NCBI RefSeq assembly: GCF_000622245.1
Contig: NZ_JHXW01000015.1
Span: 1-46,914 of the forward strand
DNA from: Fusobacterium perfoetens ATCC 29250
GTDB taxonomy: Bacteria > Fusobacteriota > Fusobacteriia > Fusobacteriales > Fusobacteriaceae
Reading direction: 5' to 3'
DNA: 46,914 nt
The notes beneath the pieces were generated by a model. It was given only the letters and a program-made list of their open reading frames with translations. It was not told where the DNA came from and did not search any database. A program made the translations under genes and the position numbers. Within the stretch, counting starts at the first letter, position 1, and every line of letters begins with the position of its first letter. Shown here in pieces: positions 44,623-46,914 of the stretch.

Positions 44623-46299
44623 ATGGCTACAAAAACATACTATAAGACAGAGGAAATAGGAGCAAATAAACCAGGATTTTCTAGAACTCGTTCTATAATA
44701 GAAGCGGCTTTTTATGGGAACAATGTAACAAAAGTTACAACAGTAAAAGAAGCTTATAAATTAGCAAAGGCATCTCCTGGAACAATAGTAACAGATTTAC
44801 CTGTTTATAAAGGTGAAGAATTTGGATTAGAACCTGATACAAAAGTTTTGTTATTTAATGATGGACCAATTACAGGACGTTTTGCTGCAGCTAGAAGAAT
44901 AGTAGGAGACCCAGATATTGATAAGGAAAGATTAGATAAAACTTTAATGAATGCTGTTTATTATACAAGATTTAAAAAACTTTATCATGCTGAAGCATAT
45001 ATAGGATTAAATCCTGAATTTATGGTAAAAGCTCACTTATTAATACCTGAAGGTGAAGAAAACATAATGTATTCATGGATGTTAAACTTCCAATATTTAT
45101 CAACTGAATATTTAAAAATGTATAAAAATTCGAGAGTTCTTCCAAAAGAATCTGATATATATATTTTCTCAGACCCATTCTGGAAAGGAACTAGATATGT
45201 AGAAGCTGCTGACCCAGAATATTTAACATACTTTGACCCTGAAAATAACTGTGCTGCTATACTTGGAATGAAATATTTTGGAGAATTTAAAAAAGGAACT
45301 TTAACTTTAGCTTGGGCTATAGCTAATCGTCAAGGATATGTATCTTGTCATGGTGGACAAAAAAGATATAAATTACCAAATGGAGAATCATATGTTGCTT
45401 CATTCTTTGGATTATCAGGAACAGGAAAATCTACATTGACTCATGCTAAACATAATGGAAAATATGATGTAACAATTTTACATGATGACGCTTTTATTAT
45501 TAATACTGAAACTTGTTCATCAATAGCTTTAGAGCCAACATATTTTGATAAAACAAATGACTATCCAGCTGGAAGTCCAGACAATAAATATCTATTAACA
45601 GTTCAAAACTGTTCAGCTACTTTAGATGAAGATGGAAGAGTAGTTATAGTAACAGAAGATATAAGAAATGGAAATGGTAGAGCTATAAAATCTAAATTAT
45701 GGTCACCAAATCGTGTAGATAAAATAGATGAGCCTGTAAATGCTATATTCTGGTTAATGAAAGACCCTACATTACCACCAGTTATAAAATTAAAAGGGGC
45801 TTCTCTAGCTTCTGTAATGGGAGCAACTCTTGCTACTAAGAGAAGTAATGCTGAAAGATTAGCTCATGGAGTAGACCCTAACGCACTAGTAGTTGAACCT
45901 TATGCAAACCCATTTAGAACTCATCCATTATCAGATGACTATAATAAATTTAAAAAATTAGTTGGAGATAAAAATGTAGATTGCTATATTTTAAATACAG
46001 GAGAGTTTATGGGTAAAAAAGTAAAAGCTCAAGATACTCTTGGAATATTAGAAAAAATAGTTGATAAAGAAGCTGTATTTAAACCTTGGGGACCATTCTC
46101 TGATATAGAAATATTTGAATGGGAAGGATTTGTACCTAATTTAGAAGATGAAAACTATCTAAGTGCTTTAAAGGCTAGAATGAATGATAGATTAGAATTT
46201 GTAAAATCTAGAGAAACATTTAAAGGTGGAAGAGATAGACTTCCTGAAGATGCTTTAGAAGCTATAGAAAAAGTTGTAAAAGAAATAAATTCTATTTAG
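44623..46299 (+). CDS. pckA: Phosphoenolpyruvate carboxykinase (ATP)
   Basis: Interconverts oxaloacetate plus ATP with PEP, CO2 and ADP. In anaerobes it often runs toward oxaloacetate and makes ATP. The P-loop FFGLSGTGKSTLTH, the following HDDAF metal motif and the RNGNGRAIKSKLWSP region mark the ATP-dependent class. At 558 residues it is slightly longer than the E. coli enzyme (540). It has GGAGG eight bases from the start. The gene stands alone with two candidate promoters and a terminator at 46331. Codons such as CGT and AAC are more common here than nearby, as in strongly expressed genes. Confidence 0.95.
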   Translation: MATKTYYKTEEIGANKPGFSRTRSIIEAAFYGNNVTKVTTVKEAYKLAKASPGTIVTDLPVYKGEEFGLEPDTKVLLFNDGPITGRFAAARRIVGDPDIDKERLDKTLMNAVYYTRFKKLYHAEAYIGLNPEFMVKAHLLIPEGEENIMYSWMLNFQYLSTEYLKMYKNSRVLPKESDIYIFSDPFWKGTRYVEAADPEYLTYFDPENNCAAILGMKYFGEFKKGTLTLAWAIANRQGYVSCHGGQKRYKLPNGESYVASFFGLSGTGKSTLTHAKHNGKYDVTILHDDAFIINTETCSSIALEPTYFDKTNDYPAGSPDNKYLLTVQNCSATLDEDGRVVIVTEDIRNGNGRAIKSKLWSPNRVDKIDEPVNAIFWLMKDPTLPPVIKLKGASLASVMGATLATKRSNAERLAHGVDPNALVVEPYANPFRTHPLSDDYNKFKKLVGDKNVDCYILNTGEFMGKKVKAQDTLGILEKIVDKEAVFKPWGPFSDIEIFEWEGFVPNLEDENYLSALKARMNDRLEFVKSRETFKGGRDRLPEDALEAIEKVVKEINSI

Positions 46300-46330: not shown

Positions 46331-46368
46331 AAAGCCACTGTGTAAAAACAGTGGTTTTTTATTTTTTT
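46331..46368 (+). terminator. Terminator after pckA
   Basis: AAAGCCACTGT (46331-46341) pairs with ACAGTGGTTT (46348-46357) with a wobble pair, followed by T-rich sequence. Confidence 0.9.
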
Positions 46369-46479: not shown

Positions 46480-46509
46480 TTGATTTTTTTTTTTTTTTTG
46501 AGATATACT
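46480..46509 (+). promoter_or_regulatory. Adhesin-gene promoter with a T16 tract in the spacer
   Basis: TTGATT (46480-46485) and TATACT (46504-46509) are 18 bases apart. The spacer is fourteen T plus GAGA; counting the end of the -35 box, the homopolymer is sixteen T (46484-46499). Loss of one T gives the optimal 17-base spacing. Homopolymer slippage in a -35/-10 spacer is a known way to switch surface-protein genes on and off. Confidence 0.6.
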
Positions 46510-46634
46510 TTTATTAAGAAATAGATACAATGACTGCAATTTAAGAAGATATAAAAAAAACGAGAGTTTTTATATATCTGTTTTAGATTGCTTTTTTTTT
46601 ACAAAAAATTTATTTGTTATTATGGAGGTGTACT
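46510..46634 (+). other. Leader of the adhesin-like gene with hairpin
   Basis: About 120 bases of untranslated leader. AGATATAAAAA (from 46548) can pair with TTTTTATATATCT (ending about 46579), and a T9 run follows at 46592-46600. This might be a weak attenuator, but the stem is AT-only and the T run is displaced from it by about 12 bases. GGAGG at 46624-46628 precedes the start codon. Confidence 0.4.
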
Positions 46635-46914
46635 ATGAAAGATAATATTAAAAAAAGTTTAAAAAGATTGCTAAAAAGAAAAGTAAAAATAACTTTAGGA
46701 ATAATAATTGCTTTTATGATAACAGGAGTAGTAAGTTATTCTAATGATGATGTAATAAGTGAAAGTGTAACTGTAAAAATTAATTCAAATGGAATATATA
46801 ATGAAGGAGTAATAGAAAGTTTAGAAAACTTTGAAATAATAGTAGGAAGTAATAATGGAATATATAATAATCAAGGTGGAACAATAGGAAGTCTAGAAAA
46901 CTTTGGAATAATAG
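46635..46914 (+). CDS. Autotransporter/adhesin-like surface protein, N-terminal part (partial)
   Basis: The gene runs off the window end; 93 codons are visible. It opens with a long basic leader (MKDNIKKSLKRLLKRKVKIT) and a hydrophobic core ending near VVSYS, the extended signal peptide seen in fusobacterial type V secreted proteins. The mature part is made of 22-residue repeats with the pattern NGIYN-x-G-x-I-x-SLENF-x-II-x-GS; the second copy begins 66 bases after the first. Such N/G-rich repeats build beta-helical passenger domains. A C-terminal barrel cannot be seen, so the class is inferred. It lies behind the T16 promoter, which suggests phase-variable surface expression. Confidence 0.75.
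   Translation, partial: MKDNIKKSLKRLLKRKVKITLGIIIAFMITGVVSYSNDDVISESVTVKINSNGIYNEGVIESLENFEIIVGSNNGIYNNQGGTIGSLENFGII
46788..46914 (+). repeat. 66-bp tandem repeat within the adhesin-like gene
   Basis: AATGGAATATATAAT recurs at 46788 and 46854, and the AGAAAACTTTG-x-AATAATAG segment recurs with the same 66-base offset. Two copies are visible before the window ends. The unit is a multiple of three, so copy-number changes keep the frame. Confidence 0.75.

Follow-up and report, generated by a model that had tools for sequence, protein, structure and literature searches.

Control of promoter output through the spacing of the −35 and −10 boxes is established in other bacteria. At opc and porA of Neisseria, the length of a homopolymer between the two boxes sets the transcription of outer-membrane proteins, and the tracts of the vlp promoters of Mycoplasma hyorhinis occupy the same position. 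For M. hyorhinis, all vlp genes have been described as carrying an adenine tract in their promoter regions, with on/off switching through insertions or deletions in the tract (PMC10502178). The promoter region of the adhesin gene sabA of Helicobacter pylori carries a poly-T tract of 13–19 bases, which occurs in mixed lengths within strains, and the effect of this promoter tract was left open (PMC2715451). Fusobacterial autotransporters are adhesins with roles in biofilm bridging and tissue attachment; binding differences between isolates are unexplained, and phase variation was proposed as one possible cause, no mechanism having been demonstrated (PMC6346709). For the autotransporters of Fusobacterium nucleatum, such variation had been suggested earlier (PMC6346709, citing Desvaux 2005). 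Here, we analyzed a contig of 46,914 nucleotides (nt) from Fusobacterium perfoetens ATCC 29250 (NZ_JHXW01000015.1), referred to at its full length as the window, with respect to a run of 16 T (T16) in the predicted promoter of an autotransporter-like surface-protein gene. Judged from sequence comparisons, we assign a probability of roughly 0.84 to the reading that T16 is the site at which slippage makes the sigma-70-type promoter of this gene phase-variable.

The predicted −35 box TTGATT (46480..46485, + strand) and −10 box TATACT (46504..46509, + strand) flank the proposed slippage tract (46484..46499, + strand; T13 in the ortholog of the sister species, genome G002). The order on the + strand is AAAAAGGGGA-TTGATT-T14-GAGA-TATACT-TTTATTAAG. 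Two T of the run belong to the −35 hexamer, and the 18-nt spacer consists of T14 and GAGA (46500-46503). A generic promoter scan chose identical boxes with 9 of 12 consensus matches and a spacer of 18 nt. Coordinates and sequence agree with the preliminary description, which had placed TTGATT and TATACT around an 18-nt spacer made almost entirely of T. Transcription would be expected to start near 46516. Since AT-rich DNA yields such boxes by chance (4 promoter-like matches in the scan vs 5.8 in shuffles), the boxes alone are no proof. T16 is, as had also been described, the longest homopolymer of the window, followed by A10, and a first-order model of the window predicts 0.007 T runs of at least 16 nt per 47 kb. 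Genome-wide, the first-order model predicts about 2.4 A/T runs of at least 16 nt and about 70 of at least 12 nt. With a few runs of at least 16 nt expected per genome, the tract length alone is not decisive, and the non-random part is the placement.

For analysis of this placement, tracts were listed by pattern searches of the genome of the window (G000; 2.1 Mb, about 25% GC) and of G002, with one genome per species. A/T runs of at least 12 nt were found five times in G000 and six times in G002, every one between a TTG −35 and a TANNNT −10 with a gene downstream. This placement applied to 12 of 12 runs of at least 11 nt vs 19 of 2132 orientations of 6–10-nt runs in the same DNA. At all 12 sites, which are not independent (about 7 loci with at least three unrelated promoter sequences), TTG is located right at the tract edge and TANNNT 2–4 nt past the tract. 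In the two genomes, 8 pattern matches stood against 0 in a control with the reversed pattern. The five runs of at least 12 nt in G000, all in promoter spacers, compare with the roughly 70 expected from composition, and selection seems to act against long runs outside promoter spacers. As regards poly-G switches, G runs of at least 8 nt occur only twice in the genome.

These results also bear on whether T16 arose by chance, is an artefact of assembly or forms the U-run of a terminator. A genome of about 25% GC should contain a few runs of at least 16 nt under a simple model, and it is generally known that counts in draft assemblies can err by one or two. Against this stand the tract at the same site in G002 and the location of all long tracts in promoter spacers, by which chance or artefact is largely refuted. 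As a terminator U-run of the upstream gene pckA, T16 was rejected, because the actual terminator, a hairpin with T-rich tail, lies at 46335..46366 (+ strand; stem CCACTGT/ACAGTGG, 46335-46354), separate from T16 and about 120 nt upstream of it. The scan reported this stem on the minus strand, and both of its flanks are T-rich. The probability of this entire group of explanations is therefore next to negligible.

Most of the genes behind tract promoters encode autotransporters or other exported or surface-structure proteins. Autotransporter genes follow tracts at three loci per species (one of the G002 tracts being T11), and at another locus a small exported protein is followed by a further gene with an autotransporter N-terminal domain. 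An Imm17-like gene cluster lies behind an A tract (gene strand), and specific to G002 are a flippase-glycosyltransferase cluster and a TRAP-type lipoprotein gene behind tracts. At the Imm17 locus (L174, 2113-2553; L181, 2843-3283), the A16/A17 spacer tract is located ahead of the Imm17-family gene and 12 nt past an XRE-type regulator gene, representing a promoter of switch-like design in what may be an immunity cluster and not at an adhesin gene. The gene for the TRAP-type substrate-binding lipoprotein (L180 on contig C28 of G002; reverse strand, gene from 5050) is preceded by an A13 promoter and, in the assembly, runs into an in-frame stop after 77 codons.

Tract lengths differ between relatives. 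Orthologous tracts of G000 and G002 have the lengths T16/T13, T19/T11, T12/T16, T20/T12 and A16/A17 (exact counts being subject to the draft-assembly error of one or two), with the boxes kept and corresponding spacers of 18/15, 21/13, 14/18, 22/15 and 19/19 nt. Four of the five vary in length, vs 13 of 422 ordinary 5–9-nt runs in aligned orthologous DNA. The first pair is the locus of the window, for which the preliminary description had proposed a comparison with other genomes; between T16 here and T13 in G002, identity spans pckA into the T tract, breaks there, and returns at the leader peptide. Differences were also found between near-identical promoters: two paralogous promoters of genome G074 carry T16 and T18, with a single substitution across about 130 nt upstream and none across 200 nt downstream, while G026 and G027, which share 98.8% identity over 1.3 kb, carry T14 and T16, with two other small indels nearby. 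Hypermutability of the tracts is supported by these alignments.

The layout recurs in more distant genomes, namely G023, G026/G027, G035, G036, G048 and the Leptotrichiaceae-like G074 (family f4), where family names for G023, G074 and others were read from protein starts. Over 96 genomes of the order, the combined −35/tract/−10 pattern gave 13 matches vs 0 in the reversed control. A looser pattern gave 56 vs 23 in the control, so part of the looser signal outside these genomes is background. In G023, the layout TTGCA/TTGTA-T14-GA-TACAAT precedes one gene of autotransporter-like type and four whose starts resemble a YadA head, and in G035 a tract precedes the autotransporter leader MKDNLEKSLKRYLKRKVKVTLG. 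Two of the YadA-like genes of G023 (L217 and L219), both with T14, are identical in promoter, leader and the start of the signal peptide and diverge beyond, pointing to duplication or gene conversion of a switch cassette. Overall, Fusobacteriales seem to make repeated use of this layout. A wider generalization, which we put forward tentatively and at somewhat less than even odds, would be that promoter-spacer T/A slippage is the main simple-repeat switch of the Fusobacterium and Leptotrichia families, each such genome holding a few graded promoters, drifting independently of one another, that serve adhesins and surface polysaccharide, with long homopolymers purged nearly everywhere else.

In the proposed switch, slipped-strand mispairing at replication would lead to gain or loss of T, and each step would shift the −35/−10 distance by one base (T15, 17 nt; T16, 18 nt; T17, 19 nt), thereby changing promoter strength and turning transcription up or down. 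The T16 state, with a spacer near the usual optimum, would be ON or near-ON. Independent drift of the five tract promoters of this genome would result in a clonal population with mixed surface proteins. The preliminary description had proposed a phase-variable spacer promoter, and this stands as regards the recurrent layout at every long A/T tract of G000 and G002 and the variation in length between near-identical promoters; slippage within this species and an effect on transcription are what we infer from them.

Several observations weigh against such a switch. The A16/A17 pair differs by substitution only and retains its 19-nt spacer, the five tracts of G023 are uniformly T14, and the layout is missing from five further genomes of the same genus. 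Also, mutS is intact; this is compatible with slippage in long mononucleotide tracts and does not exclude it, and loss of mismatch repair as the driver was rejected, mutS being the gene checked. In addition, a pronounced −10 and a weaker −35 have been reported for promoters of F. nucleatum (PMC11005410), so spacing may matter less and the response to it may be shallower.

The A16/A17 pair and the uniform T14 tracts of G023, as well as the fact that long tracts mutate anywhere, would suit a fixed promoter in which the T tract serves a structural purpose as bent or stiff spacer or as protein-binding site, with length drift as a side effect and no switching. However, orthologous spacers of 13–22 nt with both boxes kept, several of them expected to be poor, are unlike one working geometry and fit alternating states better; furthermore, long A/T runs are lacking elsewhere in the genome, and the genes concerned are of the type that is usually switched. 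We therefore regard a fixed promoter as unlikely. Alternatively, the tract could alter transcription independently of the −35/−10 spacing, e.g. by shifting the site of a regulator or a stretch resembling an upstream element, an effect that has been considered for tracts in other promoters. The weak −35 of F. nucleatum promoters would be in line with this, as would the variable poly-T tract at sabA, whose influence on transcription was not settled (PMC2715451). Against it, the position of TTG at the tract edge and of TANNNT shortly beyond the tract at every site is the signature to be expected of core-promoter spacing, which makes an effect apart from spacing quite improbable. Switching through the spacer thus remains the preferred reading.

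The upstream neighbor of the promoter is pckA, encoding phosphoenolpyruvate carboxykinase (44623..46299, + strand; open reading frame of 558 amino acids), with tblastn relatives of 71–93% identity and the closest named match in Fusobacterium sp. (L072, 93%). It is also the upstream neighbor at the G002 locus. A pckA search for further species gave one Fusobacterium record only, with no autotransporter beside pckA there. Downstream of the promoter, the predicted leader of 119 nt contains a terminator-like hairpin (46536-46591) followed by T9 (46592-46600), together 46536..46600 on the + strand with an RNA fold z of −2.7. This hairpin is kept in five autotransporter leaders of G000 and G002, where nearly all base changes preserve pairing, but the pckA-locus gene of G002 does not have it. 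It resembles an intrinsic terminator and may act in transcription attenuation. Rfam gave only sub-threshold matches for the region, and a search for the leader pattern in viral contigs gave no match.

A Shine-Dalgarno sequence GGAGGT (46624..46629, + strand) stands ahead of the ATG at 46635 of the autotransporter-like gene, of which the 5′ part is present (46635..46914, + strand). The window is the entire contig C11, and its end falls inside this gene. The N-terminus matched positions 1-43 of 120 of NF033175 (fuso_auto_Nterm) with an E-value of 2.8e-7 and 30.7 bits, below the curated cut-off of 55 because only part of the domain was matched; the repeats of the protein come after this autotransporter leader. 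At the same place after pckA, G002 has a gene for a 954-amino-acid autotransporter with a PF03797 barrel (E 2.2e-36), followed by a phosphoesterase-like gene. The annotation of the downstream gene as surface-protein gene in the preliminary description is supported by the sub-threshold NF033175 match and by PF03797 in the syntenic gene, from which a surface location would be predicted. The G000 counterpart of the phosphoesterase-like gene begins at C8:733, behind a barrel-like C-terminus EWTVGMGIGYKF; contig C8 of G000 (L214, 1-255) opens within an autotransporter barrel end resembling the one of the G002 C13 gene. Since this barrel end adjoins the expected downstream neighbor, synteny indicates that the gene of the window probably ends on contig C8. 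The break at 46914 is probably located in a repeat common to autotransporter genes. On contig C64 of another genome, G003 (L155, L160), a sequence resembles a mammalian (carnivore-type) short interspersed nuclear element, which we take to be probable host contamination.

A promoter-spacer tract is a concrete site, accessible to counting by sequencing. Differences in expression among isolates or colonies are predicted to track tract length, and studies of single colonies may misjudge adhesin expression. In searches of an open-access library, we found no report of switching by promoter T tracts (spacers) in Fusobacterium or Leptotrichia; the mechanism is known from other bacteria, and its use here appears to be unreported in the open-access literature searched. 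The earlier suggestion for F. nucleatum autotransporters concerns the same order and protein class. As at sabA, a poly-T tract lies in an adhesin-type promoter, sabA having an additional CT repeat in the coding region. Compared with opc and porA, which are single loci with C or G tracts, the tracts described here consist of T or A and occur at no fewer than five loci per genome. The likeness to vlp lies in a surface-protein family in which every member has a homopolymer in its promoter, and in which a common leader precedes repetitive bodies that diverge. Unlike the vlp genes, which form a single cluster and encode lipoproteins of a wall-less bacterium, the loci here are scattered and encode outer-membrane autotransporters behind tracts that are mostly T on the gene strand and are accompanied by a hairpin leader, and they would be switched in a comparable manner.
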